Assembly (NCBI GenBank): GCA_019634625.1
Contig: JAHCBA010000020.1
Span: 1-64,000 of the forward strand
Length of the DNA: 64,000 nucleotides
Direction: 5' to 3'
Origin: Verrucomicrobiia bacterium
GTDB taxonomy: Bacteria; Verrucomicrobiota; Verrucomicrobiia; Limisphaerales; CAIMTB01
The notes beneath the pieces were generated by a model that was not told where the DNA came from, made no database searches, and saw nothing but the letters and a program-made list of their open reading frames with translations. A program made the position numbers and the translations under genes. Shown piece by piece: positions 28,174-62,050 of this stretch (position 1 is its first letter; each line of letters opens with the position of its first letter).

Positions 28174-28174
28174 T

Positions 28175-29047
28175 ATGTGCCAGGACTGCGGCTGCGGCCT
28201 TCCCCTTCCCACCCCGAACCCCGGATCGCCCGCCCACGAAGCGACCGGCCCGTCTCCACCCCATTCCCACGATCACCCCCATTCCCACGATCACCCCCAT
28301 TCCCACGATCACCCCCATTCCCACGATCACCCTCACGAGCCCACCGTCGCTGGCAATGCCGCCAGTCCAACCCCGTCCTCCGAAGCGGCCCGACACATCC
28401 CCATCCTCCGTTCGCTCCTCGAACGCAACGAACGCTTCGCCGAACGCAACCGTGGTTTCTTCCGCGCCAAACGCCTCCTCGTCCTGAACGTCGTGTCCGC
28501 TCCCGGCTCGGGGAAGACCGAACTCATCGAGAAAACCGCCGTCGCCCTCCGCCCCGCCCTCCGGGTCGGCGCGATTGTCGGCGACCTCGCCACCGACCAC
28601 GACGCCCAGCGTCTTCGGGCCGCCTCCGTTCCCGTCGTTCAGATCGCAACCGGCACCCTGTGCCACCTCGAAGCCGAAATGGTCGGCCGCGCCGCCGATT
28701 CCATGGATCTCGACGCCCTCGACCTGCTGGTGATCGAAAACGTCGGCAATCTGGTCTGTCCCGCTTCCTACGACCTTGGCGAGCACCTCCGCGTCGTGCT
28801 CCTCTCCGTCACCGAGGGCGAAGACAAGCCGCTCAAGTATCCCCCGCTCTTCCATTCCGCCCAGGCCGCCCTGATCACCAAGCTGGACCTCGCCGATGCG
28901 GTCGGGTTCGACCGGCAACTGGCCCGATCCAACCTCGAACGCGTCAGTCACCACGCCCAACGGTTCGAGGTGTCCGCCCGCACCGGCGCCGGCATGGATG
29001 CCTGGACCACCTACCTGGCTGAACAACACCGCGCCCTCCGCGGTTAG
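28175..29047 (+). CDS. hypB: Hydrogenase maturation GTPase HypB
   Basis: 290 residues. The N-terminal nickel site is MCQDCGCG. Residues about 29-54 form a His-rich nickel-storage tract with four HSHDHP units encoded by near-perfect 18-base repeats. The SIMIBI GTPase domain follows: P-loop [23 protein letters not shown] (switch), [17 protein letters not shown] and [12 protein letters not shown]. HypB couples GTP hydrolysis to nickel insertion. The His tract suggests the cell buffers nickel. It ends six bases before hypF. Confidence 0.96.
28254..28336 (+). repeat. 18-base in-frame tandem repeat encoding the HypB His tract
   Basis: Four copies of CATTCCCACGATCACCCC, almost identical at nucleotide level, including third positions. 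Identity at synonymous sites shows recent expansion or homogenisation by slippage. Confidence 0.9.
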
Positions 29048-29053
29048 CCTCCC

Positions 29054-31642
29054 ATGCCCCCTGCCCCCGTCATCGGAGGGTCGAACTCCCGCGACGCCAC
29101 CCTGGGCGCGCTGCCCCCGGAACCTTCCCCGTCCGGCCCTCCCTCCGCAGCGCACACCGCGCTCCACGTCCACCTCACCGGCACCGTGCAAGGCGTCGGC
29201 TTCCGTCCCTACGTCCACCGCCTCGCTTCGGAACACCACCTCACCGGCTGGGTTCGCAACGGCGCCGACGGCGTCACGCTCGAGGTGGAAGGACCAGCCA
29301 CCGCCGTCCGCGCCTTCCTCGAACGTCTGCCCCGCGAAACCCCGCCGCACAGCCGAATCCGGCACCTCGAAACCGCCTGGCACCCCCCCGGCGGCCACCC
29401 GTCCTTCGTCATCCGCGACAGCGACCCAACCCCCGCCCATTCCGGTCCCGTCCGTATCCCGCCGGACCTCGCCACCTGTCCCGACTGTCTCCGCGACGTC
29501 TTCGATCCCGGCAACCGGCGCCACCGGTATCCCTTCACCAACTGCACCCAGTGCGGCCCGCGCTACTCGATCGTCGAGTCGCTCCCCTACGACCGGCCCC
29601 GCACCTCGATGCGCGCGTTCCCGCTGTGCCCGGATTGCCAGGCCGAGTACGACGATCCGCGGGACCGCCGCTTCCATGCCCAACCCATCGCCTGCCCGCG
29701 TTGCGGCCCCCAGCTTGAATTCTGGGATCCATGCGGCCGAACCCTGGCCGTCCGCGACCAGGCCCTAACCCTCACCCTCGAATCCCTGCGCGCCGGCCGC
29801 ATCGTCGCCCTCAAGGGCATCGGCGGATTCCAACTGCTCGTCGATGCCACCAACCACCGGGCGGTCCAGGACCTTCGCGAACGCAAACGCCGCGAAGCCA
29901 AACCCTTCGCTGTGATGTTCCCAAACCTCCCCACCCTTCTCCGCCACGGCGACATCAGTCCTGTCGAAACAGCCTGCCTCACCGGCCCCGAAGCCCCCAT
30001 CGTCCTCGTCCGGCGCCGCCCGGATCGCCACGACCGTTCCCAGCCCACCACCGCACCCTCGGTCGCCCCCGGGAGCCCCTGGCTCGGCGTCATGCTCCCT
30101 TACTCTCCCCTTCATCACCTTCTGCTGGCCGGTTTCGATGGACCCCTCGTGGCCACCAGCGGCAACCCCGGCGACGAACCCCTCTGCATCGACAACCACG
30201 AAGCCCTGCAACGGCTCGCCGGCATCGCCGATGCCTTCCTCGTCCATAACCGCCCCATCGTCCGCCCCGTGGACGATTCCGTGGTCCGCGTCGTGGCCGG
30301 ACGCGAAATGGTCCTGCGCCGTGCCCGCGGATTCGTCCCCACTCCCACTCCCATCGCGCCATCCCCTGTCCTCCCACCCGCAGCCGAACCCGGCTCCCCC
30401 GGCCCGAACGCCTCATCCCCTCCACGCCCGCCCGCGCGTCCCGCCACCATCGCCCTGGGCGGTCACCAAAAGGCCGCCATCGCGCTGTCCAACGGATCGG
30501 AGTTCATCCTGGGACAACACCTCGGCGATCTCGACACCGTGGCCGCCCTCGCCGGCTTCGACCGCTGCGTCGGAGACCTCGTCCGCCTGTTCCACCTCCA
30601 GCCCGCCGGGGTGTGCGTCGATGCCCATCCCGACTACGCCAGCACCCGGCACGGTCATCGCCTCGGGCTCCCGGTCCGGCCGGTCCAGCATCACCAGGCC
30701 CATGTCCTCGCGGTCATGACCGAACACCGCCTGCGCCCGCCGCTCCTGGGGTTCGCCTGGGACGGCACCGGCGCGGGACTGGACGGCACGGTCTGGGGCG
30801 GCGAGACATTCCACGCCACGATCCACGGATGGCGCCGGTGCGCCCGGTTGCGACCCTTCCGCCTGCCGGGTGCCGAGGCCGCCATTCGTGAGCCACGCCG
30901 TTCGGCCCTCGGACTCCTGTACGCCGCATTCGGCGAAGACCTGACCGCGCAAGCCAACCTCCCAACCCTGCGCGCCTTCGAGAGGCGCGAACTCGCTCTC
31001 CTCCTTTCCGCCCTCCGACGCGGACTCCATGCTCCCTGGACCTCCAGCGTCGGACGCCTCTTCGATGCCGTGGCGTCCCTCGCCGGCTGGCGCCACCTCC
31101 ATCGCTTCGAGGGCGACGCCGCCATGGCCGTCGAGTTCGCCGCCGAGGGGTGCCCGGACGACTTCGGGTATCCCATGCCCCTGCAAATGCCGCCGCCCGA
31201 TCGCGCCGCCCCCGACGGCGCCAACGAACTCGACTGGGAACCCCTTCTCCAGGCGCTCCTCGACGACCTCCGCGCGGGCATGGCCCCGGGCCGCATCGCC
31301 GCCCGGTTCCATCGCGGCCTCGCCGACGCCATCGTCGCCGTGGCCCGTCACATGGGCGAAAGGGTGGTCGTCCTTGGCGGCGGCTGCTTCCAAAACCGCC
31401 GCCTCACCGAATCCGCCGTCACCGCCCTGCGCGAGGCCGGCTTCGAACCCCACTGGGCCCACCTCATCCCCCCCAACGATGGCGGACTCGCCCTCGGTCA
31501 GCTCGCGGCAGACACCTTCCCCACCGAAGCCGGGCTCGCCCTCGGTCAGCTCGCGGCAGACACCCTCCCCGGGGAGGTCGGGCTCGCCCTCGGTCAGTCC
31601 GCTGACGCCTTCCAACCCGATCCACTCGCCCAACCCATCTGA
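29054..31642 (+). CDS. hypF: Carbamoyltransferase HypF
   Basis: 862 residues, somewhat longer than the usual 750-780. It makes the carbamoyl adduct that becomes the CN ligands of the hydrogenase Fe. Domains in order: a Pro-rich leader; acylphosphatase (GTVQGVGFRPYVHRLASEHH, about 35-120); paired zinc fingers (CPDCLRDVF, CTQCGPRYS, CPDCQAEYD, CPRCGPQ, about 140-220); YrdC-like domain with FAVMFPNLPT and ATSGNPGDEPLCIDN; and Kae1-like domain with VQHHQAHVLAVMTEH and LGGGCFQNRRLTE. A Pro-rich linker of about 40 residues separates the YrdC and Kae1 parts. The normal C-terminal motif PPNDGGLALGQLA is followed by tandem 16-residue duplications of itself. Confidence 0.95.
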   Translation: MPPAPVIGGSNSRDATLGALPPEPSPSGPPSAAHTALHVHLTGTVQGVGFRPYVHRLASEHHLTGWVRNGADGVTLEVEGPATAVRAFLERLPRETPPHSRIRHLETAWHPPGGHPSFVIRDSDPTPAHSGPVRIPPDLATCPDCLRDVFDPGNRRHRYPFTNCTQCGPRYSIVESLPYDRPRTSMRAFPLCPDCQAEYDDPRDRRFHAQPIACPRCGPQLEFWDPCGRTLAVRDQALTLTLESLRAGRIVALKGIGGFQLLVDATNHRAVQDLRERKRREAKPFAVMFPNLPTLLRHGDISPVETACLTGPEAPIVLVRRRPDRHDRSQPTTAPSVAPGSPWLGVMLPYSPLHHLLLAGFDGPLVATSGNPGDEPLCIDNHEALQRLAGIADAFLVHNRPIVRPVDDSVVRVVAGREMVLRRARGFVPTPTPIAPSPVLPPAAEPGSPGPNASSPPRPPARPATIALGGHQKAAIALSNGSEFILGQHLGDLDTVAALAGFDRCVGDLVRLFHLQPAGVCVDAHPDYASTRHGHRLGLPVRPVQHHQAHVLAVMTEHRLRPPLLGFAWDGTGAGLDGTVWGGETFHATIHGWRRCARLRPFRLPGAEAAIREPRRSALGLLYAAFGEDLTAQANLPTLRAFERRELALLLSALRRGLHAPWTSSVGRLFDAVASLAGWRHLHRFEGDAAMAVEFAAEGCPDDFGYPMPLQMPPPDRAAPDGANELDWEPLLQALLDDLRAGMAPGRIAARFHRGLADAIVAVARHMGERVVVLGGGCFQNRRLTESAVTALREAGFEPHWAHLIPPNDGGLALGQLAADTFPTEAGLALGQLAADTLPGEVGLALGQSADAFQPDPLAQPI
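31487..31606 (+). repeat. 48-base tandem repeat at the hypF 3' end
   Basis: Units starting at 31487, 31535 and 31583 each begin CTCGCCCTCGGTCAG and encode LALGQLAADTFPTEAG, LALGQLAADTLPGEVG and LALGQSADAF. They duplicate the normal end of HypF in frame, adding about 35 residues. Confidence 0.9.
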
Positions 31643-31645
31643 ATC

Positions 31646-31900
31646 ATGTGCCTCGCCGTCCCAGGTCGTGTCGTGGAAATCCAGGGTGACGATCCCCTCT
31701 GGCGCTCCGGCCGCATCGACTTCGGAGGCGTCCTCAAGGACATCAGCCTCGCCTGCGTTCCCGAGGTCGTCATCGGCGACTACGTCATCGTCCATGCCGG
31801 CGTCGCCATCAGCCGCCTCGACCCGGACGAAGCCGCCCGCGTCCTCGAACAGTGGCGCGCCCTCGAAGCCCTGATCGGCCCGGAGGAACCTCCCCCGTGA
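31646..31900 (+). CDS. hypC: Hydrogenase assembly chaperone HypC
   Basis: 84 residues starting [12 protein letters not shown], where Cys2 binds the Fe(CN)2CO unit, followed by the small OB-fold with [20 protein letters not shown] and [15 protein letters not shown]. HypC forms a complex with HypD and hands the iron group to the hydrogenase large subunit. It starts three bases after hypF and its stop overlaps hypD by four bases. Confidence 0.96.
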
Positions 31901-33003
31901 AGTACCTCGAGGAATATCGCGACCCCGACCTCGCCCGGCGTCTCGCAGGCGAAATCCATCGGGTGACCACCCGCCCCTGGACCCTCATGGAGGTCTGCGG
32001 CGGACAGACCCATTCCATCGTCCGCCACGGCATCGACGAAGTCCTGCCTCCGGACGTCACTCTCATCCACGGCCCCGGTTGTCCGGTCTGCGTCACCCCC
32101 GTTGCGATCATCGACGCCGCCATCGCCATCGCGCGCCGGCCCGGGGCGATCCTCTGCTCCTTCGGCGACATGCTCCGGGTTCCGGGCACCGACACCGACC
32201 TGCTCGCCGCCCGCTCGGAAGGGGCCGATGTCCGCATGGTCTATTCGCCGCTCGACGCCGTCGCCCTCGCCGCCCGTTGTCCCGACCGCGAAGTGGTGTT
32301 CTTCGGCGTGGGATTCGAAACCACGGCGCCAGCGACCGCCCTTGCCGTGCTTCAGGCCGCAGACCGGCGCCTCTCCAACTTCTCGATGCTCGTCTCCCAC
32401 GCACTGGTGCCCCCGGCCATGGAGGCGCTGCTCTCGGATCCCGACGCCTCGATCCAGGGCTTCCTCGCCGCCGGTCACGTTTGCGCCGTCATGGGCTACG
32501 CCGGGTACGAACCCATCGCCGCCCGCCACCGCCTCCCCATCGTTGTCACCGGCTTCGAACCCCTCGACATCCTCGAAGGCATCCTCCGCTGCCTCACACT
32601 CCTCGAGGCTGGCCGCTTCGGACTCGAAAACCCCTACGCCCGCGTCGTCCGCCGACCGGGCAACGAGACCGCCCAAGCCTGGATGCAGCGCGTGTTTCAG
32701 GTCGTCGATCGCGCCTGGCGCGGCATGGGCATCATCCCCCGCAGCGGCCTCGGCTTGCACCCCGGTTACGCCGCCTTCGATGCCGCCCTCCGCTTCGACC
32801 TCGATCCCAATCCAGTCGAACCGGAATCGCCCTGCCGCAGCGGCGAAGTCCTTCGCGGCCGCCTCAAACCCTTCGACTGCCCCGAATTCGGCACCCGTTG
32901 CACCCCGGAACATCCCCTCGGCGCCACCATGGTCTCCTCCGAAGGCGCCTGCGCCGCCTACTTCCGCTACCGGCCCCGCCCGGCCCCGGCACCCTCCTCC
33001 TGA
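31897..33003 (+). CDS. hypD: Hydrogenase maturation Fe-S protein HypD
   Basis: 368 residues from GTG 31897, which overlaps the hypC stop as GTGA. HypD carries a [4Fe-4S] cluster and is the scaffold for the Fe(CN)2CO group. Diagnostic motifs: [66 protein letters not shown] and, at the C-terminus, [20 protein letters not shown] followed by [18 protein letters not shown]. Length is normal. It closes the cluster; hypE does not follow. Confidence 0.96.
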
Positions 33004-49802: not shown

Positions 49803-51740
49803 TCACGGCTCCGCCGGACCCTCGATGATCCTCATCGTGCGGTTGATCCCCAACCCTTCCGTCACCCGCTGGCGGAGCCCCGACGGCCAGCGCACCTCAA
49901 CCGCCTCGATCGCCTCCGCATCGCCCAGCCCGAAATACAGCGGCATCGAACTCTGCCCGAGATATCCCGACTTCCCGTCGTGATACTGGGTCAGCGTCCG
50001 CCCCCCCGCCGTCACGCGCACCGTCGCACCCAGTCCGTCCCGGTTGGAACGTGTCCCCTGAAGCCGCACCGCGAGATACCGGACGTCCCTCCTCTCCGTG
50101 AGATCGCTCAACAGGATCTGCGGCCGGTCGTTGAACTCATGGATCACCAGATCCAGATCTCCGTCGCCGTCCAGATCCACGATCGCCGACGACCTTGAAC
50201 TCAGCGTGCCCAGCACGTTGGTCCGCCCCTGGAAATCCCCGCACATCGGGTGACCCCGGTCGTCCCCGCCGCAATCGAGGCTGAACCAGACCTTCTCCGT
50301 GCGGCCGTCCGCCCTCGGCTCGACGCCCACCAGAAACTCCGCGTCGAAAAACCGCCGTCCGCCGTCATTCAAGAGCACGGAATTGATCGCGTACCGGAAC
50401 GGATACCCCATGCCCGCGGTCACCACGATGTCCTCGTACCCATCCGCGTTCAGGTCCCCGACACTCACGCCCCACGGCCAGTATGTCTCGACCCCGAGCG
50501 CATCGGAAACCTCCTCGAAGACTCCCCCGCCCCGGTTCCGGTAGAAGGCATTGCCAAAGAGGTTGTTCTCCGGGCCCTGGAAATACTCCTCCGGCCACTG
50601 CACCGAACACCACGCCTCGCTCTTCGACTTCTCCACCTCCAGCCGGAACTGCAACGCCAGCTCGGTCTGCGGCTGGGTCATGTCCGAATGCATGTCCACC
50701 ACATACCCGTCCATCCGGCCGTCCCCGTCGAAGTCGAAGAACTTCACCCCCATCGCGCCCCAGGGCGTTTTCGGGAAATACTGCGCGGTCCGCTCCACAA
50801 AACCCTTCCCCGCCACGTTCTCGTAATACCGGTCGTCGCCCTGCATGTTCACCAGGTACAGGTCCGGAAAACCGTCCCCGTTCAGATCCGTGAACGTGGC
50901 GTCCCCGCTCCAGCTTCCATCCCGGAATCCCATCGCGTCCGAGACGTTCCGGAACCGCCCGCCCCCGATCCCGCGATACAGAATGCTGTACTCCGTCCGC
51001 TCGGGAAACAGGTGGCCCTGGAAGGCGTCCGGCAACGCCAGAAAATACCCGCCCCGCCCCCGCCGGTTCTCCGTGTACCGCCCCACATTCGTCACCAGCA
51101 GATCCAGCCAGCCGTCGTTGTCGAAGTCGAAGAACACCACCCCCGAGGAATGCCCGAAATGCTGCAGACCCGACTCCCGGGTCACGTCCCGAAACCGTCC
51201 GTCCCCGAGATTCTCGAAGAGCCGGGTGCCGTATCGCACCGTCGTCACCAACAGGTCCGGATCCCCGTCGTTGTCCACATCCGCAAACGCGCACGCGACC
51301 GAGATCTGGTCGGTCATGGCCACGCCGGCCCGTTCGGTGATGTTCTCGAACCGTCCACCCCCCAGATTCCGCCAGAGTTCGTTGCTCCCCAACTGGGTCG
51401 TGAAATAGAGGTCCGGAAGCCCGTCCCCATCGACATCCGCCACCGCCATGCCGTTCCCGTGATCGTAATGCGCCGCCCGGTAGTTGATCCCGGCGTCGTC
51501 CACAATCCGGTGCTCGAACCGGATCCCGCTCGATTCCCGCGCATCCTGGAACCGGAACCCATGAAACGCCTCGAACCGCCGGCTGGCCGTCTCCTGCTGG
51601 CGTTTCCGCGCCTCCAACCGGCGCACCGCGAACTGGTGCTCCGCACTCTCCGCGCTCTCCGCACCCGGCGCCGGCTCCATGCCCGCCCACCCGCACCCCA
51701 GGGCCAGTCCAATCCTCATCCAACATGATGCCTTCCGCAT
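49803..51740 (-). CDS. CRTAC1-type FG-GAP/ASPIC-UnbV repeat protein
   Basis: 645 residues from ATG 51740, preceded by AAGGGGGG. A signal peptide-like N-terminus (IGLALGCGWAGMEPAPG) is followed by FG-GAP/VCBS beta-propeller repeats with Ca-binding D-x-D-x-D-G loops: VADVDGDGLPDLYFTT, FADVDNDGDPDLLVT, FFDFDNDGWLDLLVTNVG, FTDLNGDGFPDLYLVN and others. It ends with an ASPIC/UnbV domain (RLQGTRSNRDGLGATVRVTA). Such proteins are exported; their ligands are unknown. It differs from the two tandem CRTAC1 proteins farther on in containing an inserted FQGPENNLFGNAFYRNRG region. It is divergent from the sulfatase gene, 122 bases apart. Confidence 0.88.
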   Translation of the reverse strand: MRKASCWMRIGLALGCGWAGMEPAPGAESAESAEHQFAVRRLEARKRQQETASRRFEAFHGFRFQDARESSGIRFEHRIVDDAGINYRAAHYDHGNGMAVADVDGDGLPDLYFTTQLGSNELWRNLGGGRFENITERAGVAMTDQISVACAFADVDNDGDPDLLVTTVRYGTRLFENLGDGRFRDVTRESGLQHFGHSSGVVFFDFDNDGWLDLLVTNVGRYTENRRGRGGYFLALPDAFQGHLFPERTEYSILYRGIGGGRFRNVSDAMGFRDGSWSGDATFTDLNGDGFPDLYLVNMQGDDRYYENVAGKGFVERTAQYFPKTPWGAMGVKFFDFDGDGRMDGYVVDMHSDMTQPQTELALQFRLEVEKSKSEAWCSVQWPEEYFQGPENNLFGNAFYRNRGGGVFEEVSDALGVETYWPWGVSVGDLNADGYEDIVVTAGMGYPFRYAINSVLLNDGGRRFFDAEFLVGVEPRADGRTEKVWFSLDCGGDDRGHPMCGDFQGRTNVLGTLSSRSSAIVDLDGDGDLDLVIHEFNDRPQILLSDLTERRDVRYLAVRLQGTRSNRDGLGATVRVTAGGRTLTQYHDGKSGYLGQSSMPLYFGLGDAEAIEAVEVRWPSGLRQRVTEGLGINRTMRIIEGPAEP

Positions 51741-51862
51741 CCCCCCTTGGTACGCTCCCCCACCCCGCCGCGGCAATACGCCGCATCTCGACCCCGCCTC
51801 CCAGGTTCGTGCAGGATCTCCCGGCTTGCCCCATGGCCCATCCCCGGTTCCCACTCCCCGTC

Positions 51863-53350
51863 ATGACCCGCCGCCTTTCCCTTTGCCTGACGTTGTCCGC
51901 CCTCCCGCTGGCGATCCTCCTGAGCGTCGCCTCCGCACAGACACCCGCTTCCCGGCCCAACATCCTCCTGATCTGCGTCGATGATCTGAAACCGACGCTC
52001 GGCACCTACGGGGACACGCTGGCAAAGACCCCGCACCTGGATCGTCTCGCCTCGACCGGGCTCCGCTTCGATCTCGCCTATTGCAACCAGGCGGTCTGCG
52101 CACCCTCCCGTTACAGCCTCATGCTCGGGTCCCGCCCCACCTCGACCGGCCTCTATGACCTGTCGCGCAACCTGCGTCAGGTCGCCCCGGACGCCGTGAC
52201 GCTGACCCAGCACTTCATGCGCCACGGCTACCGGACCGAGGCGGTCGGGAAAGTCCTCCATACCGGACACGGCAACGTCGAGGACGCCGCCTCGTGGAGC
52301 GTCCCGCCTGTCATTGAAAAGGTCGTCGAGTATCTCGACCCCGCCCATTCCGCAGGCGGCCGCCTGACCCGCGAGGAGGCCTACTTCACCAACCAGCAGC
52401 TCGACAACATCCGTGCCCTCCCGCGCGGCGCCGCCATCGAATCCGCCGACGTTCCCGACCAGGCCTACGCCGACGGCCGCATCGCCGACGAAGGCATCCG
52501 TCGCCTCCAGGCCGCTGCCGCCAATCCCGGGACGCCGTTCTTCCTCGCACTCGGCTTCGTGAAACCCCATCTCCCGTTCACCGCCCCGACACGCTACTTC
52601 GATCTCCACGATCCCCAGGCCTTTCCTCTCGCCCCCTTCCAGAACCCCCCGGAGGGCGCCCCGCGTTACGCCGGAAAGGTCGGCGGGGAGATCGTGAACT
52701 ACGACCCATTGACCGTCGAAAACCTCCGCGACGAAGTCACCCAACGCCGCCTGATCCACGCCTACTACGCCTGTGTCACCTACGTGGATGCCCAGATCGG
52801 CCGCGTCCTCGATGAACTCAACCGCCTCGGCCTGCGCGACAACACCATCGTCGTGGTCTGGGGCGATCACGGCTGGCACCTGGGCGACCACGGGTTCTGG
52901 ACCAAACACACCAACTACGAGGAGGCCAACCGCATCCCCCTCATCCTCTCGGCCCCGGGCGTCACCCGGCCCGGCACGGCCACCCGCCAGCTCACGGAAA
53001 CGGTCGATCTCTTCCCAACCCTGGCCGAACTGGCCGGACTTCCCGCCCCGTCCGGCCCCCAGTCCATCGACGGCGCCAGTCTGGTCCCCGTTCTGCGCGA
53101 CCCGGCCGCCTCGGTTCGCGACCACGCCTACCACTGCTTCCCGCGCGGCGAACGGATGGGCCGCGCCATTCGCACCGCCCGTCATCGCCTCGTGGAATGG
53201 AAACGTCCCGGCGCTCCCCCCGAAACCGCCGAATTCGAACTCTACGACTACCAGGCCGATCCCCTCGAAACCCGCAATCTCGCCACCGCCCAACCCGAAG
53301 TCGTCGCCCAACTCCGCGCCATCCTCGCCCGCCATCCCGAAGCCCGGTAG
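51863..53350 (+). CDS. Sulfatase (iduronate-2-sulfatase-like)
   Basis: 495 residues from ATG 51863. Signal peptide MTRRLSLCLTLSALPLAILL with cleavage near ASAQ. PNILLICVDDLKPTLGTYGD gives the metal-binding Asp pair (D40, D41). The formylglycine motif is C79-A-P-S-R, so it is a Cys-type sulfatase needing a formylglycine-generating enzyme. VKPHLPFTAPTRYFDL, VWGDHGWHLGDHGFW and KHTNYEEANRIPLIL are hallmarks of the iduronate-2-sulfatase group. It probably desulfates polysaccharides outside the cytoplasm. It is flanked by CRTAC1 genes on both sides. Confidence 0.95.
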   Translation: MTRRLSLCLTLSALPLAILLSVASAQTPASRPNILLICVDDLKPTLGTYGDTLAKTPHLDRLASTGLRFDLAYCNQAVCAPSRYSLMLGSRPTSTGLYDLSRNLRQVAPDAVTLTQHFMRHGYRTEAVGKVLHTGHGNVEDAASWSVPPVIEKVVEYLDPAHSAGGRLTREEAYFTNQQLDNIRALPRGAAIESADVPDQAYADGRIADEGIRRLQAAAANPGTPFFLALGFVKPHLPFTAPTRYFDLHDPQAFPLAPFQNPPEGAPRYAGKVGGEIVNYDPLTVENLRDEVTQRRLIHAYYACVTYVDAQIGRVLDELNRLGLRDNTIVVVWGDHGWHLGDHGFWTKHTNYEEANRIPLILSAPGVTRPGTATRQLTETVDLFPTLAELAGLPAPSGPQSIDGASLVPVLRDPAASVRDHAYHCFPRGERMGRAIRTARHRLVEWKRPGAPPETAEFELYDYQADPLETRNLATAQPEVVAQLRAILARHPEAR

Positions 53351-53394
53351 AACCGGCCGTTCCCTCTCCACCCGGCGCCCGCATCCCGCTCCCT

Positions 53395-55146
53395 TCAGTT
53401 CCCGGAGGATGTCCGGTCTCCCGCCGGCCCGCCCGGACCGGACCGGGACTGTCCCTCGATGATCGTCACGATTCGATCCGCCTCGACGTTCTCGAGGATG
53501 TCGATCCCGCCCCCGATCCATCGCACTTCGATCCGATCGACGCGCCCGCGCCGCCCCAGTCCAAAGTGCGGATGCATCCCGTAATGACTCTGATACCCGC
53601 GCCCGCTGTGAACCTCGCCCACCATCGTCAGATCCCCCGCCACCACCCGGACCCGCGCACCAATGCCATCCCGGTTCCCGCGCGTGCCCCGGGTCCGCAC
53701 CCGGATCCAATGGTTCCCTCCCGGACTCTCGTTCCTCAGGATCGTGGGACCGCTGCGCGCGTTGAGAATGACGACGTCCATCCGCCCATCGTTGTCCAGA
53801 TCGTCGAAGGCAGCCCCGCGACTGCTCAGCGCCACCGCAAGTCCGTCCCCGGCGCGTGAGGTGACATCCACAAACCGGCCCTGCCCGGTGTTTGCCAGCA
53901 GGATGTTCCGGGCCCGGTACCGCGCGGTGTCATCCCAGAGTTCGACATTGTCCTGCAAGTGACCGCAGACGATGAACAGGTCCCGGTGCCCGTCGTTGTC
54001 GAAATCGACCAGGCCGTTTCCCCAGGTGACCTCGGGCAGGGTCCCGGCGCCCGCCCCGGAACGGTGGGTCACGTCATCGAACATGCCCCGGCCAAGATTC
54101 CGGTACAGCGGCGCCCACTGCCGCTGATAGGACGTCATGTGGAAATCCAGCCGCCCGTCGTTGTCGTAGTCCCCGACCTCGACCCCCATCGTCCCCTGGC
54201 CCACCCCGTGCATGTCATACGCCAGTCCCGTGAGCATCCCCACCTCCTCGAACCGCCCCGTGCCGTCGTTCCGGAACACAAAGTTCGCCATGGCATCGTT
54301 GCCCACGATGATGTCCGTGTGCCCGTCGTCGTCGTAGTCCGCACACACGACGCCCATCCCGGTGCCCGCATGAGCCGCCACGCCGGATGCGACACTGACA
54401 TCCGTGAAGGTCCCGTCCCCGTTGTTCCGGTACAGGGTGTCCGGAACCGGCCCGTAGATCATGGGCCCGACATAGGCGGGATGTCCGTTGATGACCCGGG
54501 TCCGGTGCTTCTCCAGGGTGAAGTCGATATAGTTGGCCACGTAGAGATCCAGGTGCCCGTCGCCGTCGATGTCCAGAAAGCACGCTCCCGCCCCCACCTT
54601 GTCCCCGTTGGCCACGCCGGCCTCCGCAGTCACATCCGTGAACGTCCCGTCCCCGTTGTTCCGGTACAGCACGTTCGGCCCGAAATTGTTCACATAAATG
54701 TCCGGGTGCCCGTCGTTGTTGTAATCCCCGATGCACACCCCCAGCCCGTACCCGGTGTCCCCCACACCCGCCTCAAGCGTGACATCCGTGAACGTCCAGT
54801 CGCCATGGTTCCGGTAGAGCGCATTCCGCGGAGCCGGCGTTCCCCCGGGCGCCCCGGGCAGCGCCGCGCCGTTCAGAAAGTAGATGTCCGTCAGCCCGTC
54901 CCCGTTGTAGTCGAACAGCGCAATTCCCGCACTCACACTCTCAACGATGTAGCGCCGTCCCGAACTTCCGTCCGTGTGCACAAACCCGATGCCGGTCCCC
55001 GAAGTCACTTCGCGCAGCACAATCGGCGACGACTCCGCCATCCCCCGGGACGCAGCCGTCCCCAGCACGCCCGCGAGAACGCCCGCCATCGCGCCGATCG
55101 CCCGCCCCACCCTTCCCGATCCCCATCCGCAAAGGTTCCAGATCAT
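53395..55146 (-). CDS. CRTAC1-type FG-GAP/ASPIC-UnbV protein (tandem paralogue 2)
   Basis: 583 residues. After a hydrophobic export signal come VTSGTGIGFVHTDGSSGRRY and a series of Ca-binding FG-GAP repeats (LFDYNGDGLTDIYFLNGA, GDYNNDGHPDIYVNNFGP, LDIDGDGHLDLYVANYID, DYDDDGHTDIIVGNDAM, VDFDNDGHRDLFIVCGHL). The C-terminal ASPIC-UnbV domain contains RGTRGNRDGIGARVRVVA and GLGRRGRVDRIEVRWIGG. It is strongly similar over its whole length to the preceding gene, whose stop it overlaps by four bases (ATGA), so the pair arose by tandem duplication and is translated together. Confidence 0.9.
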   Translation of the reverse strand: MIWNLCGWGSGRVGRAIGAMAGVLAGVLGTAASRGMAESSPIVLREVTSGTGIGFVHTDGSSGRRYIVESVSAGIALFDYNGDGLTDIYFLNGAALPGAPGGTPAPRNALYRNHGDWTFTDVTLEAGVGDTGYGLGVCIGDYNNDGHPDIYVNNFGPNVLYRNNGDGTFTDVTAEAGVANGDKVGAGACFLDIDGDGHLDLYVANYIDFTLEKHRTRVINGHPAYVGPMIYGPVPDTLYRNNGDGTFTDVSVASGVAAHAGTGMGVVCADYDDDGHTDIIVGNDAMANFVFRNDGTGRFEEVGMLTGLAYDMHGVGQGTMGVEVGDYDNDGRLDFHMTSYQRQWAPLYRNLGRGMFDDVTHRSGAGAGTLPEVTWGNGLVDFDNDGHRDLFIVCGHLQDNVELWDDTARYRARNILLANTGQGRFVDVTSRAGDGLAVALSSRGAAFDDLDNDGRMDVVILNARSGPTILRNESPGGNHWIRVRTRGTRGNRDGIGARVRVVAGDLTMVGEVHSGRGYQSHYGMHPHFGLGRRGRVDRIEVRWIGGGIDILENVEADRIVTIIEGQSRSGPGGPAGDRTSSGN

Positions 55147-56864
55147 GGCCTGTCGTTGCCCCCGGTTTCCCCAACCCGGTTCTCTCCCTCCACCACGGTC
55201 ACCAGGCGGTTCACCCCGACGTCGCGCACCACATCCACTCCGCCACCAATCCACTGCACCCGGATCTCGTCCACCGCACCGCGTGGCCCGAGTCCGAAGT
55301 GAAGCCGTGTCCCGAAATCACTCTGGTAACTGCGTCCGCTGTGCACTTCCCCGAATTGAGTCAGGTCCCCGGCCACCACGGTCACCCGCGCCCCCACCCC
55401 GTCCCGGTTCGACCGGGTCCCCCGCAACCGGACCTGAAGCCAGCGATGACCGCCCCCGGACTCATTCCGCAACACGGTCGGTTCCCGCCGGGAATTGAGA
55501 ATCACCACATCCAGCAGACCGTCGTTGTCCAGATCCCCGACCACCGCCCCACGGCTGCTCAACGCCACCCGCAGCCCGTCCCCGCTCTGGTCCGACACAT
55601 CCACGAACCGACCCCGGCCCGTGTTCCGCAGGACGATGTTCCGCGCATGATACCGGGTGGTGTCATCGAACCGCTCCACCTGGTCGATCAGATGCCCGCA
55701 GGCGATGAACAGGTCCCGGTGCCCGTCGTTGTCCAGGTCCGCAAGACCCGCACCCCAGGTCACCTGCGCGTAAGTGCCCGTACCCGCGCCGGTCCGTCGT
55801 GTCGCATCCGCAAAATAGCGTCCCCCGCGGTTCTCGTAGAGCGTGGTGAGCTGCCGCTGGTACGAGGTCGTGAATAGGTCGGGCCACCCGTCATGGTTCC
55901 AGTCCCCCGCCTCGACCGCCATGGTGCCATGGGCGGCGCCCAACTCGTCGTACGCAATGCCCGCCGCCAGCCCGACCTCCTCGAATTTCCCGGCGCCGTC
56001 ATTGCGGAACAGAAAGTTCGCACCCAGGTCGTTGCCAACCACGATGTCGGTGTCCCCGTCCCCATCATAGTCCAGCGCGATCACGCCCATCCCGGTCCCA
56101 CGATGCGCCGCAATCCCCGAGGACTCACTGACATCCGTAAAGGTCCCGTCCCCGTTGTTCCGGTACAGCACGTTGGGGACCGCCGGATAGTTCAGCGGGC
56201 CGACATACGATGGAAAGCCGCTCATGTGCGAGATGTGATGCGTCTCGAAGGTGAAATCAACGTAGTTGGCGACGAACAGGTCCAGATGCCCGTCGCCGTC
56301 GATGTCGAGAAACGTGGCCCCAGCACCCACCCGGCTGCCGGCCGCAACCCCGGCCTCGCGGGTCACATCGGTGAAGGTCCCGTCCCCGTTGTTCCGGTAC
56401 AGCACATTCGGCCCGAAGTTGTTCACATAAATGTCCGGGTGACCGTCGTTGTTGTAGTCCCCCACACACACTCCAAGGCCGTACCCCGTGTCGCCAACCC
56501 CGGCCTCAAGAGTCACATCCGTGAAGGTCCAGTCCCCGTTGTTCCGGTACAGCGCATTCCTCGGAGGCGCGTCCGTCCGCGGCGCACCCGGGAGCGGCGC
56601 GCCATTGACAAAGTAGATGTCCAGATAGCCGTCCCCGTCGTAGTCCAGCAGCGCCAGACCGGCACTGACACTCTCCACGATGTAATAACGGCCCGAACTC
56701 CCATCCGTATGGACAAAGCCAATCCCCGAAGTCCGGGTGACATCGCGGAACCGGATGGGGGAGGGTTCGTTGGCGCCTTCCGCCCCGCCCAGGCCACTCA
56801 GCAGCAGCGCCAGGGTCTTCGCCAGGCCCTTCCAGCCCGGGACGTTCGAGCGCCGGCCGTTCAC
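55143..56864 (-). CDS. CRTAC1-type FG-GAP/ASPIC-UnbV protein (tandem paralogue 1)
   Basis: 573 residues from GTG 56864, which overlaps the stop of the TPR gene by four bases (GTGA). The export signal is LAKTLALLLSGLGGAEG. The repeat series parallels its neighbour (LLDYDGDGYLDIYFVNGA, LDIDGDGHLDLFVANYVD, LDYDGDGDTDIVVGNDLG, ADLDNDGHRDLFIACGHL) and ends in RGTRSNRDGVGARVTVVAGD and GLGPRGAVDEIRVQWIGG. An open frame continues farther upstream but overlaps the TPR gene and is not needed. Both tandem proteins probably sit outside the cytoplasmic membrane with the TPR protein. Confidence 0.9.
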   Translation of the reverse strand: MNGRRSNVPGWKGLAKTLALLLSGLGGAEGANEPSPIRFRDVTRTSGIGFVHTDGSSGRYYIVESVSAGLALLDYDGDGYLDIYFVNGAPLPGAPRTDAPPRNALYRNNGDWTFTDVTLEAGVGDTGYGLGVCVGDYNNDGHPDIYVNNFGPNVLYRNNGDGTFTDVTREAGVAAGSRVGAGATFLDIDGDGHLDLFVANYVDFTFETHHISHMSGFPSYVGPLNYPAVPNVLYRNNGDGTFTDVSESSGIAAHRGTGMGVIALDYDGDGDTDIVVGNDLGANFLFRNDGAGKFEEVGLAAGIAYDELGAAHGTMAVEAGDWNHDGWPDLFTTSYQRQLTTLYENRGGRYFADATRRTGAGTGTYAQVTWGAGLADLDNDGHRDLFIACGHLIDQVERFDDTTRYHARNIVLRNTGRGRFVDVSDQSGDGLRVALSSRGAVVGDLDNDGLLDVVILNSRREPTVLRNESGGGHRWLQVRLRGTRSNRDGVGARVTVVAGDLTQFGEVHSGRSYQSDFGTRLHFGLGPRGAVDEIRVQWIGGGVDVVRDVGVNRLVTVVEGENRVGETGGNDRP

Positions 56865-58384
56865 GGGCGCGCCACCCCGCTGAGTTGTTCGAGAAACTGC
56901 CGGTACCGCGCTTCGTCCGGGTGGATCGCCAGCGCGCGTTGAATCGCCTCCCGGGCTCCCGGACGGTCGCCCGCCCTCAGACACGCCACTGCCAGCAGAT
57001 AATGATGCGGTCCGCTCGGCTCCAGGGTGACAACCCTCCGCGCCAGCTCCCTCGCCTCCGAACCAGGACGCCCCGCCCGCAGAAGGAGTTCCGCCAGGGC
57101 GCGGTGGCCTTCCGCCCAGTCGGGCGCCAGTTCCAGCGTCCGGCGATAGGCTCGTTCCGCCGCATCGAACTGTTCCATCCGCCCAAGGAGCCGCCCCAGA
57201 AAGTAATGATTCAGCGGATTTCCCGGCTGATCGGCGACCAGTCCTTCAAACGCCGCCACGCCCTCGGTCAGGGTGCGCTCCCGCACATGGTGGCCTTCCA
57301 TCGCCCCCCGGTACGCCGCGTTCTCCGGATCCAGAGACGCCGCCCGCAACAGCAGCCCGCCCGCCCGCCCCGGCTCTCCATGAAGTCCATACACCTGGGC
57401 CGCGCCGAACAGCGTCTGCGCCACCGTCCGACGCACCAGCGGCAGCCCCGTCAGGGTGTCCTCCCGCGCACTCCGGTCCGACAACCCCTGCCGGTCTTCA
57501 GCCTCAAGCTCCTGAAACCGGCGCCGATACCGGTCGGCCTCGTCCGCCCGCTCCAGCCGGAGACTCGCGGTGTACAGGCCGAAATAGGCCTGGGTGTGGT
57601 CCGGAAGCAGCCTGACCGCCTCCAGAAAGGAGTTTATGGCCGCCTCATACTCACCCGACTGCACATGCGCCTGCCCCAGCAGATAGTGACTCTCACTCGT
57701 CGGCCGCGGCAGTGACACCGCCTGCCGCAATGGCCCCATCGCGTCTTCAGCCTGCCCCAGGTCCATCAGCGCCCGCCCCATCCGGTTCAGCAATTCGGCG
57801 TTCGCCGGACCCCGATTCAGCGCCTGCCGGCAAAGTTCAAGGGTCTCCTCCAGATTCCCCTGCTCATAGGCCATCCGCGCCAGTATCTCGTACGCATCCA
57901 CCAGTCCCGGATTCAGTTCGAGACACCGGCGCAAGTGCTTCCCGGCTTCCTCGGTCCGACCCAGATTGTAACAGGCCGACCCAAGCACGGCGTGAGCCAG
58001 CGCATCCTCCGGATACGCAGCCGCCAGCGCCGTCGCCACCGCCACCGCTTCTCCTTTGAGGGCCGCCGCCTCCGCCAGGGGCTCTGGTATGGGTTCCTCC
58101 ACCCGGCTCCCCAATCCGGGCAAAACCGGCCCCTTCGAGACCATCTCCCCAACGGCGCCATCGAGGCGCCCTGCCGGCTCCGGGGAGGATCTCCGGTTGA
58201 CGAACCACGTGGTCACCCCCACCGCCACCAGGATCAACGCCGCAAGCCCGACCCATTGGGCCAATGCGCCTGCCCGTCCGGCTCCCCCGCCGCGTCGCAT
58301 GAGCCCGTCCCGGAGCCCGTCCCGGACCTTCCCGGGATCTCGTTGGGCGCCACGGTTGCGATTTCGGTTGGAAGGCCGGCTCAC
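56861..58384 (-). CDS. Membrane-anchored tetratricopeptide-repeat protein
   Basis: 507 residues from GTG 58384 (TTG 58423 also possible). A basic, Arg-rich N-terminus is followed by one membrane helix (WVGLAALILVAVGVTTWFVN, about 44-63), then a linker and at least nine TPR units, for example ALAHAVLGSACYNLGRTEEA, ESHYLLGQAHVQSGEYEAAI, PLNHYFLGRLLGRMEQFDAA and GPHHYLLAVACLRAGDRPGA. Topology predicts a periplasmic TPR domain. It is the first gene of a three-gene operon with both CRTAC1 paralogues, joined by four-base overlaps, which suggests that it organises or receives the FG-GAP proteins. Confidence 0.88.
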   Translation of the reverse strand: MSRPSNRNRNRGAQRDPGKVRDGLRDGLMRRGGGAGRAGALAQWVGLAALILVAVGVTTWFVNRRSSPEPAGRLDGAVGEMVSKGPVLPGLGSRVEEPIPEPLAEAAALKGEAVAVATALAAAYPEDALAHAVLGSACYNLGRTEEAGKHLRRCLELNPGLVDAYEILARMAYEQGNLEETLELCRQALNRGPANAELLNRMGRALMDLGQAEDAMGPLRQAVSLPRPTSESHYLLGQAHVQSGEYEAAINSFLEAVRLLPDHTQAYFGLYTASLRLERADEADRYRRRFQELEAEDRQGLSDRSAREDTLTGLPLVRRTVAQTLFGAAQVYGLHGEPGRAGGLLLRAASLDPENAAYRGAMEGHHVRERTLTEGVAAFEGLVADQPGNPLNHYFLGRLLGRMEQFDAAERAYRRTLELAPDWAEGHRALAELLLRAGRPGSEARELARRVVTLEPSGPHHYLLAVACLRAGDRPGAREAIQRALAIHPDEARYRQFLEQLSGVARP

Positions 58385-58452
58385 GGGATCTCCAAGCGTA
58401 GAAACCGCGCTGGACAGCGGCAAGCCGGGAAGTCGGGCACGGCAGAGATTCC

Positions 58453-58614
58453 GGTGGATCGCGGAGTTGTGGGTGGGGAGACAGCGAATCGGAGGGACGA
58501 GCTCCGCGAGTCCTCAACCCAACGCTCCACACCATGGCGGCCTCGTGGAACTCGGCCCTCCGAAGAGCCGCTTGGCGGAGTTCGCTCCTCTCTCCACAAC
58601 TCCGGAATGCACGG
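58453..58614 (+). repeat. MITE-like repeat, near-complete copy
   Basis: 162 bases with a decayed left end (GGTGGATCGCGGAGTTGTGG), core at 58495-58513, the CGCTCCACACC and CCTCGTGGAACTCGGCCCTC blocks, and right end ACTCCGGAATGCACGG. It lies between the TPR operon and the LamG gene. The remaining bases (58615-58847) are less GC-rich, contain no supported gene and should hold the LamG-gene promoter. Confidence 0.8.
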
Positions 58615-58847
58615 CACAAATTCGGACAAAACCGCGCTGCATCGGAGAATACGCAACCAAAGTGTCCTCGGAACGGCCCGAGTACCACTTGCTCGTTGAC
58701 TTCGTCGGCTCGCCAATCGAAGCGTCCCCCAATCCCTAGAAGTGATTGAGAATCTCCGCACCGGTCGTGCGTGAGAAACGACAGTCTCATCGGGAATATT
58801 CAGTACTGCATTGAATTGACCGCAACGACACAACCCTGACCCAAACG

Positions 58848-61796
58848 ATGATCCGATCCCCCAAACCCCCGACCAGCCTCCGCCGATGGGCGAGCCTGGC
58901 CCTGGTCCTGCCCTTGCTGGGCGCCACGGCCCACGCCCAATCGACCGGCATCTCCGCGGGCCTGAAGGCCTACTGGAACTTTGATCAAAACAACTTCCAG
59001 GATTCCGTGGGTGAGTTCCACGGGACCGAGAACGGCACCGAGACCATCGCCTTCGTGAACGGCAAGCCGGGCTTCGGACGCGCCATCAGCCTCGATGGCG
59101 AGGATCAGTTCGTGGAAATCACCGGGGGCGAACCCGACGATCTGGCCTTCGAGGGCGGAAGCATTTCGATCGCCGGCTGGTTCAAGGTGGATGCCTTCGA
59201 CACCTCCTGGCAGGCGCTGGTCGCCAAGGGCGAGGGCAGCAACTGGCGCGTCGCCCGCCGCGGCGAAGAACAGGGCATTGCCTATGCCGGCGGCCTGACG
59301 GACACCCCGACGGGAAGCAGTGTCAACGACGGCGAATGGCACCATTTCGTGGCCATCAGCGATGCCGATGGCGCCGAATTCGGCACCGCCCTCTACATCA
59401 ATGGCGTTCGCGATGCCATCATCGAAGGGGCCGCCGTGCTCGCCGCCAACGGCCTCCGCATGCGCATCGGCGATAATCCCGGCGCCCCAGGCCGCGAATG
59501 GGAAGGGCAGATCGATGACCTCGCCATCTGGGACCGCGTCCTCACCGAGACCGAGATCGCCCTCCTCTACAACAACGGCACCGGCACCCCGCTCAACGAA
59601 TTGCTCGGACTCATGGAGGTCGATACCGACGGCGACGGCATGCCGGACTGGTGGGAGATTCTACACGGGCTCAATCCCAACGACCCAAGCGACGCCCATC
59701 TCGACTGCGACGGCGACGGGGCCACCAACCTCGAGGAGTATCTCGCCGGCACCGATCCCTGCGACACCACGCCCCCCACGCTCGCCTCGGTCACGGCCAC
59801 CCCCAGCTTCAACAACGTGATCATCACCTTCTCCGAGGAGGTGGACCCGGTGACCGCCTCCGATCCGGCCAATTACTCGATCACCCCCGCCCTCGCGGTG
59901 ACCGCTGTCTCCCATGACCGCCGTACCGTGACTCTCACCACCGCTCCGCAAACTCCGGGCGCCACAGCCTACACGCTGGCGGTCCAGAACGTCCTGGATC
60001 ACTCCAAGAATGCGATCGCACCCAACACCACCGCGGTCTTCTATTCCTATCTCCTCGTCAATACCGGCGTCCTCAAATTCTCCTTCTGGGGCGGCATCCC
60101 CGGAACGCCCGTCGACAGCCTGCTCGCGGACGAACGCTACCCGGATTCCCCGGACTGGATCGGACCCGTATTCTCCTTCAACAGCCGTGACATCCTGCCC
60201 ACCGACGTCAATGACAACTACGGCGCCACCATCGAAGGCTGGATCACCCCCGAGGAATCGGGCGATTACTACTTCTTCCTCCGCAGCGATGATGCCTCCC
60301 GGCTGGAAATCAGCACCGACGCCTCGCCGGCCAATCTCGTCTGGCAGGCCGAGGAGTACGGTTGCTGCTCGGCGTTCCTCGAACCCCTCGATTCCGCCAA
60401 GCCGGACGTGACGACTCCAGTCCCCCTCTCCCTCGTGGCGGGCCAGCGGTACTTTATCCGGGTCACCTACAAGGAGGGCGGCGGCGGTGACTTCGCCCAG
60501 GTGGCCTGGCGCCGCGAAGGCGATCCCACCCCCGCAGGGTCGCTCCTCCCGATCCCCGGCCGCTACCTCTCCTCCGCCGTGGACCTGCCGGCTCCGCCCG
60601 AAGGTGCCTTCCTCACCCAAACCCCGGGCCCGAACGCCACGGGCGTCTCCCCGTTCGCAGGCATCACCATCCGTCACCGCGACGGCGCCAGCGAATGGAC
60701 CGCCCAGAATGTCAGCCTCAAGCTCAATGGCGTCGATGTCACCCCCACCTTCACCAAGGAGGGCAACGTCGCCGTCATCACCTACCAGCCGGCGGATTCC
60801 TTCGCCAGTCTCTCCAGCCACACCGTCACCCTCGGCTACCCGGATGCCGGCGGGAACCCCGCGACACTGGACTGGTCCTTCACAGTCTCCGAGTACAAGG
60901 GCCCCGTCCGGGACAAGGTCAGCGGATTCCCTGCCCTGCTGTTCGGCGCCGCCGACCTGACCGCGGACCAGGGAGGGCGCACGGGTCAACCGGGCGATCT
61001 CGCCCTCGACACCGGGGTCTCCACCGGGGTGGGCTTCATCGCCGACGCCTCCTTCCTGAATGCCGCCACGGCGGATGACACCCTGACCATCGCCTACTTC
61101 CAGAAGCTGCGATCCGTCCGGGCATCCTCGGGCTTCTGGGCCAATTCGCCCGGCAGCAACAACGGCACCCGCGGATTCCAGGCCCATACGCCCTGGAGTG
61201 ACTCGACCATCTACTACGACACCGCCGGCTGCTGCGAGCCCGAGATCCAGCGGATCAGCCTCAACATCGCCAACTTCCCCGGCTACAGCGGAGACAACAC
61301 CTGGTGGGAGGAATGGCGCCACTTCGTCTTCATCAAGGATCGCGACCAGAAACACATCTACATCGATGGCCAATGGTTCCACTCGGGCGCAGGCGACCCC
61401 CTGCCGACCGACTTCACCTCCCTCGTCCTCGGAGGCGGCCCCAGCCTCACGGAAAACCGCATGGACGGCTGGCTCGACGACTTCGTGATCTACAGCGGCG
61501 CCCTCACCGAAACCCAGGTCGCCTCCCTCGCCGGCGGCGCGGCTCCCAGCTCGATCGCCGGTCTGCTCGCCCACTGGGACTTCAATGAAGCCCCGGCCGC
61601 CAGCGTGCGAATCATGGCGGCCCGCGCCGGCAACCAGGTCACGGTGACCTCCGAACCCGCCGCCCTCCCCGCCGGCTGGGTCCTCCAGACCGCCCCGAAC
61701 GTCAACGGCCCGTGGACGACCCAGGCCGGTGCCACCACGCCGTTCACCATCACGATCGGCAACGACAACGCGTTCCTGCGCGCCGCCCAACCCTGA
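58848..61796 (+). CDS. Secreted multidomain protein with LamG and PA14 domains
   Basis: 982 residues. Signal peptide (ASLALVLPLLGATAHA, cleaved near residue 30). Domains in order: LamG-like concanavalin fold (about 38-245; GLKAYWNFDQNNF, IDDLAIWDRVLTETEIALLY); a calcium-binding thrombospondin-3-like segment (DTDGDGMPDWWEILHGLNPN, 256-300); an Ig/SwmB-like domain (NNVIITFSEEVDPVTASDPA); a PA14 sugar-binding-like domain (GWITPEESGDYYFFLRSDDA, FIRVTYKEGGGGDFAQVAWR, about 460-570); an Ig-like domain; a second LamG-like region (EEWRHFVFIKDRDQKHIYID, WLDDFVIYSGALTETQVASL); and a short C-terminal beta module. It is probably a cell-surface or released carbohydrate-binding protein. No catalytic domain is recognised. 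Confidence 0.88.
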   Translation: MIRSPKPPTSLRRWASLALVLPLLGATAHAQSTGISAGLKAYWNFDQNNFQDSVGEFHGTENGTETIAFVNGKPGFGRAISLDGEDQFVEITGGEPDDLAFEGGSISIAGWFKVDAFDTSWQALVAKGEGSNWRVARRGEEQGIAYAGGLTDTPTGSSVNDGEWHHFVAISDADGAEFGTALYINGVRDAIIEGAAVLAANGLRMRIGDNPGAPGREWEGQIDDLAIWDRVLTETEIALLYNNGTGTPLNELLGLMEVDTDGDGMPDWWEILHGLNPNDPSDAHLDCDGDGATNLEEYLAGTDPCDTTPPTLASVTATPSFNNVIITFSEEVDPVTASDPANYSITPALAVTAVSHDRRTVTLTTAPQTPGATAYTLAVQNVLDHSKNAIAPNTTAVFYSYLLVNTGVLKFSFWGGIPGTPVDSLLADERYPDSPDWIGPVFSFNSRDILPTDVNDNYGATIEGWITPEESGDYYFFLRSDDASRLEISTDASPANLVWQAEEYGCCSAFLEPLDSAKPDVTTPVPLSLVAGQRYFIRVTYKEGGGGDFAQVAWRREGDPTPAGSLLPIPGRYLSSAVDLPAPPEGAFLTQTPGPNATGVSPFAGITIRHRDGASEWTAQNVSLKLNGVDVTPTFTKEGNVAVITYQPADSFASLSSHTVTLGYPDAGGNPATLDWSFTVSEYKGPVRDKVSGFPALLFGAADLTADQGGRTGQPGDLALDTGVSTGVGFIADASFLNAATADDTLTIAYFQKLRSVRASSGFWANSPGSNNGTRGFQAHTPWSDSTIYYDTAGCCEPEIQRISLNIANFPGYSGDNTWWEEWRHFVFIKDRDQKHIYIDGQWFHSGAGDPLPTDFTSLVLGGGPSLTENRMDGWLDDFVIYSGALTETQVASLAGGAAPSSIAGLLAHWDFNEAPAASVRIMAARAGNQVTVTSEPAALPAGWVLQTAPNVNGPWTTQAGATTPFTITIGNDNAFLRAAQP

Positions 61797-61890: not shown

Positions 61891-62050
61891 GTGCATCCCC
61901 AGGTTGTCGGTACCGAGGCAGCGAACCGGCGGGACGAGCTCTGCGAGTCCTCAACCCAACGCTCCACACCGGTGCGGCCTCGTGGAACTCGGCCCTCCGA
62001 AGCGCCGCTTGGCCGAGTTCGCACCTCTGCCCACAACGCCGGGATGCACG
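61891..62050 (+). repeat. MITE-like repeat, reference full-length copy
   Basis: 160 bases running from GTGCATCCCCAGGTTGTCGG to CACAACGCCGGGATGCACGG; the two ends are imperfect inverted repeats of about 20 bases. The core at 61932-61950 reads GGACGAGCTCTGCGAGTCC (one change from consensus), followed by AACGCTCCACACC, CCTCGTGGAACTCGGCCCTC and CGCTTGGCCGAGTTCGCACC blocks. There is no coding capacity. Confidence 0.85.

Follow-up and report, generated by a model that had tools for sequence, protein, structure and literature searches.

Do a gene for a tetratricopeptide repeat (TPR) protein and two adjoining genes for CRTAC1-family proteins form a unit that is conserved as such, and what might this unit do? 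The question is raised by positions 53395–58384 of a 64,000-nucleotide stretch of contig JAHCBA010000020.1 from a Verrucomicrobiia bacterium of the order Limisphaerales, hereafter the window. Sequence comparison indicates that the TPR and CRTAC1 genes are a real conserved cassette, built of known families and apparently undescribed; a search of Creative Commons-licensed PubMed Central articles returned no paper on the TPR–CRTAC1 pair. As to function, we favor, with a probability of roughly 0.45, an extracytoplasmic receptor complex that would capture glycans or other polymers, both binding and surface location being predictions.

Architecture of the locus

All three genes lie on the minus strand. 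The TPR gene (56861–58384) encodes 507 residues, as assigned by translation and Pfam (TPR_2 1.7e-35, with many TPR matches). It is followed by CRTAC1-A (55143–56864, 573 residues), in which Pfam places FG-GAP_3 in seven stretches and a C-terminal UnbV_ASPIC domain (1.1e-15), and by CRTAC1-B (53395–55146, 583 residues), with FG-GAP_3 in six stretches and a C-terminal UnbV_ASPIC domain (3e-16). The first-pass annotation of this DNA had the genes in this order, joined by a GTGA and then an ATGA overlap, and the sequence bears this out: at 56861–56864 the TPR stop codon shares bases with the GTG start codon of CRTAC1-A, and at 55143–55146 the CRTAC1-A stop codon does so with the ATG of CRTAC1-B. 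The two CRTAC1 proteins, described there as close paralogues, are 69% identical over 555 residues, and both have signal-peptide-like N-termini. Membrane anchorage of the TPR protein, likewise claimed, agrees with a single strong hydrophobic segment (residues 44–62) behind an Arg-rich N-terminus, from which a periplasmic location is predicted. Pfam (E ≤ 0.001) found only TPR-type and other repeat families in this protein, and no SusD-family domain.

Conservation and gene order

With CRTAC1-A as query (E ≤ 1e-150; 58 relatives first, then 320 genomes of the order), the CRTAC1 subfamily was found in 35 of the 320 genomes, mostly as tandem pairs, and with the TPR protein as query (E ≤ 1e-25), a TPR relative was found in 32 of the same 320. 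Both occur in 30 genomes, TPR alone in 2, CRTAC1 alone in 5 and neither in 283 (Fisher p 1e-34, not corrected for kinship). The TPR-only genomes are G082 and G087, the TPR match of the latter being in two pieces, one with an internal stop; the CRTAC1-only genomes are G060, G065, G085, G115 and G253, and in G253, G115 and G085 sub-threshold TPR genes do adjoin a CRTAC1. There is one match of cassette type per genome, apart from G018 (two loci) and G087 (the two pieces). The search for conserved pairs proposed in the first-pass annotation thus shows that the pairing is not confined to one genome: it recurs in these 30 genomes and in other phyla. Nor do the paralogues occur without the TPR gene everywhere else, TPR being absent at threshold from 5 of the 35 CRTAC1-bearing genomes.

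Gene order was examined in 39 loci of the same order (CRTAC1 ≥ 400 bits) and in 78 named loci sorted into score bins, two samples that overlap, about nine of the named records being probably the same assemblies. Genes were called by a simple custom script, and starts and gaps are approximate. Directly upstream of the same-order CRTAC1 genes of at least 400 bits we found a TPR gene in 33 cases, a CRTAC1 gene in 27, an opposite-strand gene in 3, another gene in 2 (one of them, in G060, a truncated CRTAC1-A) and the contig edge in 3, so that a same-strand TPR gene stands directly upstream in 33 of 38 informative genes. Among the named loci the corresponding fraction for genes scoring at least 500 is 57/67 (TPR 57, CRTAC1 7, opposite 6, other 4, edge 3). 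For genes of 400–500, from Acidobacteriota and other distant relatives, the counts are TPR 13, other 12, opposite 10, edge 3 and CRTAC1 1, and for those of 300–400 they are TPR 5, CRTAC1 3, opposite 3 and other 2. The background, taken from genes of at least 250 residues that lie four or more genes away, is 2 TPR-positive genes in 324. Among the other CRTAC1 genes of the source genome (20 regions examined) only 1 of 21 has a TPR neighbor, which rules out that every CRTAC1 gene has a TPR partner.

The overlaps themselves are less well conserved. By the script, 5 of 33 same-order loci have a gap of −4 between TPR and CRTAC1; the gap between A and B is −4 in 9 of 27 including the window (8 of 27 by the script, which took a later B start in the window and scored it 53). 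Strict overlap is ruled out as a conserved feature, −4 gaps being a minority among relatives, and the earlier step from strict coupling to a stoichiometric complex falls with it: since the overlaps are not strict, no fixed stoichiometry can be inferred.

Arrays and fusions in other phyla

The pairing recurs outside the order, in Planctomycetota and Kiritimatiellota, where TPR and CRTAC1 genes also alternate in series of two to four units (L158, L159, L161–L164, L175, L177, L179, L192, L201 and L218). Within arrays the TPR and CRTAC1 distances are correlated with r 0.891, against a mean of 0.855 for shuffled partners (5 of 2000 shuffles as high), and the nearest unit elsewhere agreed for TPR and CRTAC1 in 16 of 33 cases. 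The within-array match shows that TPR and CRTAC1 were inherited together and says nothing of contact between them, and by these comparisons the TPR–CRTAC1 pair is an inherited unit across phyla. Several arrays are headed by a protein of about 1150–1190 residues; that of L158, the sole one scanned with Pfam, is a fusion of TPR, FG-GAP and UnbV_ASPIC, with a weak TPR_Slam match below cut-off.

These arrangements bear on the reading in which the TPR protein serves its CRTAC1 client(s) from the membrane as a dedicated chaperone or export/assembly factor, and CRTAC1 acts alone once released. One TPR per CRTAC1 in arrays and in the fusion, the co-variation of the two within arrays, a TPR gene that precedes that of its client, the faint TPR_Slam match and a solenoid resembling known peptide-binding TPR domains would all suit such a factor. 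We consider it unlikely, since the scarcity of TPR neighbors among the other CRTAC1 genes of the source genome indicates that CRTAC1 proteins in general need none next door, and since the TPR–CRTAC1 fusion suggests lasting association.

Two genomes, G018 and G090, have a single-copy CRTAC1 whose neighboring TPR gene also encodes an AraC-type DNA-binding domain, joined on through a hydrophobic segment. Such fusions of an AraC-type helix-turn-helix, a transmembrane segment and TPR lie at L068:2480–4873 (minus strand; HTH_18 8.3e-19, Pfam having been run on L068 only) and L133:2699–4582 (plus strand), each directly upstream of a single CRTAC1. They bring to mind a transmembrane sensor, in which CRTAC1 would sense outside and the TPR protein would relay the signal across the membrane, and the window TPR protein, with its short N-terminal tail and transmembrane helix, has a suitable shape. 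The AraC fusion is, however, one lineage of two near-identical members of one genus, and Pfam shows no DNA-binding or kinase domain in the window TPR protein, which makes a sensor an improbable account of the cassette.

Origin of the A/B pair

A tree of 74 rows (IQ-TREE quick search, SH-aLRT support only) recovers 28 A genes and 29 B genes as two separate clades, each with support of 100, with single-copy genes, mostly with a TPR partner, branching outside both. In a larger tree of 107 rows, which took in Planctomycetota and kept 12 A and 12 B genes, A and B were still single clades (99 each) within a wider radiation of TPR-paired CRTAC1 genes. As A and B each form one clade, they are therefore traced to one ancient duplication, after which they were kept paired; a recent tandem duplication is ruled out by the extent of each clade across the order.

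The genomes G001 and G038 lie close together in both the A clade and the B clade, and G003 and G199 are grouped among B, while among A a single open fork contains both. The window's genus is not recovered as a group from its three species, and its members G002 and G004 are without the cassette. Because of these pairings and the scattered genus, the trees suggest that the cassette moved as a unit, differential loss being the alternative.

Predicted structures

The AlphaFold2 model of CRTAC1-A (mean predicted local distance difference test score, pLDDT, 87.3) has a propeller and an ASPIC fold, and superimposes on murine CRTAC1 (PDB 9etn) with Z 40.4 and a root-mean-square deviation of 2.5 Å over 456 aligned residues. 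The cassette propellers belong with the CRTAC1/ASPIC-UnbV family by both their FG-GAP propeller and their C-terminal ASPIC domain; they differ from murine CRTAC1 in being bacterial, in forming an A/B pair with a TPR partner and in sequence, the identity being about 24% over the aligned part. Next after CRTAC1, Foldseek ranks fungal N-acetylglucosamine (GlcNAc)-binding lectins (PVL/AAL), with TM-scores of about 0.35 (query) and 0.44–0.49 (target), and VIA-align ranks LGI1 and aldos-2-ulose dehydratase. The lectins have about 400 residues against the 573 of CRTAC1-A, and the likeness is one of fold only.

The TPR model (pLDDT 85.7) consists of a transmembrane helix at about residues 40–63, a disordered linker at about 63–100 and two TPR superhelical halves linked by a long hairpin (280–334). 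Its best fold match is the TPR domain of OGT; SusD is absent from the list of fold matches, an absence that excludes nothing.

Where A and B diverge consistently, they do so mainly on one side of the propeller. A site was called diagnostic if A and B have different residues there, each with at least 80% conservation among its own genes. The loop face was drawn from propeller topology and the DSSP string when the five sites at 90% were already known. Ten of the 11 diagnostic sites lie on this one face (expected 2.2, p 5.5e-7), including five of the six added at 80%. The sites that are invariant in both A and B show no such concentration, with 29 of 140 on the loop face against 27.5 expected.

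Neighboring genes

Divergent from the cassette, a giant exported protein of 982 residues with LamG, PA14 and Big_5 domains (Pfam) is encoded on the plus strand at 58848–61796. Relatives of LamG/PA14 type are found in 18 of 65 flank genes and in none of 91 genes at a distance of four genes or more (congeners counted apart); in 20 genomes, each genome has 3 to 25 matches to the window protein. A LamG/PA14-type gene lies upstream on the same strand in L146, L148 (twice) and L149. The neighbors are modular, those in L148 and L149 having Ig and PA14 domains without LamG (Pfam), so that the weaker ones are tied to the window protein by domain sharing and not by strict orthology. On this linkage the LamG/PA14 gene is, as far as gene neighborhoods tell, a fourth part of the cassette, so that the three genes of the first-pass annotation stand and the extent of the system grows by a gene that it had left out.

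The 463-bp region between the two arms (58385–58847, no strand) is presumed to be the control region of both. A scan of 53100–59000 gave no match to sigma-70-type promoters, and terminators were at chance level. Within the region is a 25-nucleotide inverted repeat (58489–58563). A 22-base stretch overlapping it recurs with two mismatches at 61993–62014, on the far side of the LamG/PA14 gene (2 matches against 0 expected), and the repeat looks like a dispersed intergenic palindrome.

On its other side the cassette adjoins a sulfatase gene (51725–53350, plus strand; Pfam), past which lies a third CRTAC1 gene (about 49803–51680, minus strand; Pfam). This adjacency had been correctly noted; the suggested link with the sulfatase did not hold, a sulfatase-like neighbor being found besides the window only in L067 and L165, and the enzyme is ruled out as a part of the system.

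Relation to multihaem clusters

Hydrazine synthase (HZS)-like gene clusters carry a CRTAC1 protein and two substrate-binding proteins, according to the main text of PMC12758564, in which the word tetratricopeptide does not appear. The likeness to the cassette is that of a CRTAC1 in a conserved multi-gene cluster, and some planctomycetal TPR–CRTAC1 arrays adjoin such clusters. The CRTAC1 of the clusters belongs to another branch, however, with about 40% identity, and the window cassette has no adjoining HZS-like gene. Eight planctomycetal loci have arrays that converge on genes of Peripla_BP_6 type (BLAST clustering; Pfam for L177 and L222), and in six of the eight a haem protein resembling HZS beta-gamma is visible, with 2–10 CXXCH motifs; the 2-haem case, in L158, is cut by the locus end. 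HZS-like clusters with a more distant CRTAC1 also occur in the window's order, including its genus (L075–L079; G001, G003), that of L075 with HZS_alpha and that of L078 with a CCP_MauG protein.

That TPR–CRTAC1 units serve extracytoplasmic multihaem redox complexes of hydrazine-synthase-like kind would account for this convergence and for the presence of the other CRTAC1 branch inside such clusters. It is nevertheless a very improbable reading for the cassette. HZS_alpha is found in 15 of 35 cassette genomes and in 113 of 320 genomes of the order overall (Fisher p 0.35), many genomes of the order having 10 or more matches to this model, and HZS-like complexes are by these counts ruled out as obligate partners in the order. 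Beside the window's cassette, Pfam detects neither HZS_alpha nor haem beta-gamma genes among the scanned neighbors. The source genome has three HZS_alpha matches, the listed one on a different contig (C28) from that of the window (C20).

Proposed function

In the receptor complex that we favor, the TPR solenoid would be a membrane-side scaffold holding the CRTAC1 protein(s), namely the A/B pair in the window's order and, in Planctomycetota, a single CRTAC1 for each TPR protein. Ligand or partner would bind at the propeller face that the B–C loops and the ASPIC loop make up, where A and B differ, and the LamG/PA14 protein could serve as an additional arm, either adhesive or carbohydrate-binding. 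What is bound would then be handed to systems for uptake or degradation whose genes lie elsewhere; in the Acidobacteriota, in which a TPR gene accompanies some of the distant relatives, a TonB-type outer-membrane receptor is often found next door. SusC/SusD-type glycan uptake combines a helical-repeat protein with exported binding proteins. The cassette is similar in its helical-repeat protein and exported proteins, and its acidobacterial relatives adjoin a TonB-type outer-membrane protein; it differs in that the TPR protein has no SusD domain and the window cassette no adjoining TonB receptor.

A TonB-type receptor (OMP_b-brl_4) lies within three genes in 14 of 22 acidobacterial loci, compared with none of 43 genes at a distance of five or more; GH3 is as near in 4 of these loci. 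Together with the LamG/PA14 neighbor and the rank of GlcNAc-lectin folds, these are indirect hints of carbohydrate. Several observations weigh against a glycan receptor. GH3 is not confined to near positions, being found once in the 43 genes at a distance of five or more; the model of the TonB-type outer-membrane protein has no match outside the acidobacterial loci among the 78 named loci, verrucomicrobial and planctomycetal units included; the acidobacterial CRTAC1 proteins are only about 40–45% identical, and only part of them have a TPR gene; some planctomycetal arrays adjoin HZS-like haem clusters instead; and integrins and LGI1 match the propeller equally well, a common propeller fold saying nothing of function.

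The same parts could alternatively serve adhesion or a biofilm matrix, with integrin-like propellers and LamG/PA14 arms fixing the cell to surfaces or neighbors, and no uptake. Exported propellers, the LamG/PA14 neighbor and a patchy distribution (35 of 320 genomes) are in keeping with this, but the TonB-type receptors and GH3 beside acidobacterial relatives point to nutrient uptake, and we regard adhesion alone as distinctly unlikely.

CRTAC1 (ASPIC/UnbV) proteins abound in Verrucomicrobiota, Planctomycetota and Acidobacteriota, and our literature search found no role for their pairing with TPR. The function can be tested directly, since the partner is fixed, the minimal cassette is defined and A/B-specific residues mark a candidate binding face. 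If the glycan-capturing receptor is correct, the cassette would represent a capture module of Sus-like kind, in bacterial groups where little is understood of how polymers are taken up. A wider and decidedly doubtful proposal is that TPR–CRTAC1 pairs constitute a class of extracytoplasmic receptors, not described before and spread across phyla, in which interchangeable propellers are mounted on a membrane TPR solenoid, the loop face sets specificity, arrays and the A/B split diversify ligands, and some lineages are wired to an AraC-type domain for kinase-free gene control.

Other features of the genome and window

The source genome (6.74 Mb, 88 contigs) has 32 UnbV_ASPIC matches, so that CRTAC1 genes as such are common in it. 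In this genome CRTAC1-like proteins of about 1100–1250 residues are encoded in L085, L086, L088, L093, L095 and L097–L100, several with two UnbV_ASPIC matches within one open frame, and that of L097 adjoins a gene resembling the LamG/PA14 giant. In the window, the frames at 13544–13672 and 16551–16757 are of low complexity (DYEYDY and LVLV runs) and are possibly not genes, and 27829–33003 holds what we take, from their N-termini, to be hydrogenase maturation genes resembling hypA, hypB, hypF, hypC and hypD.

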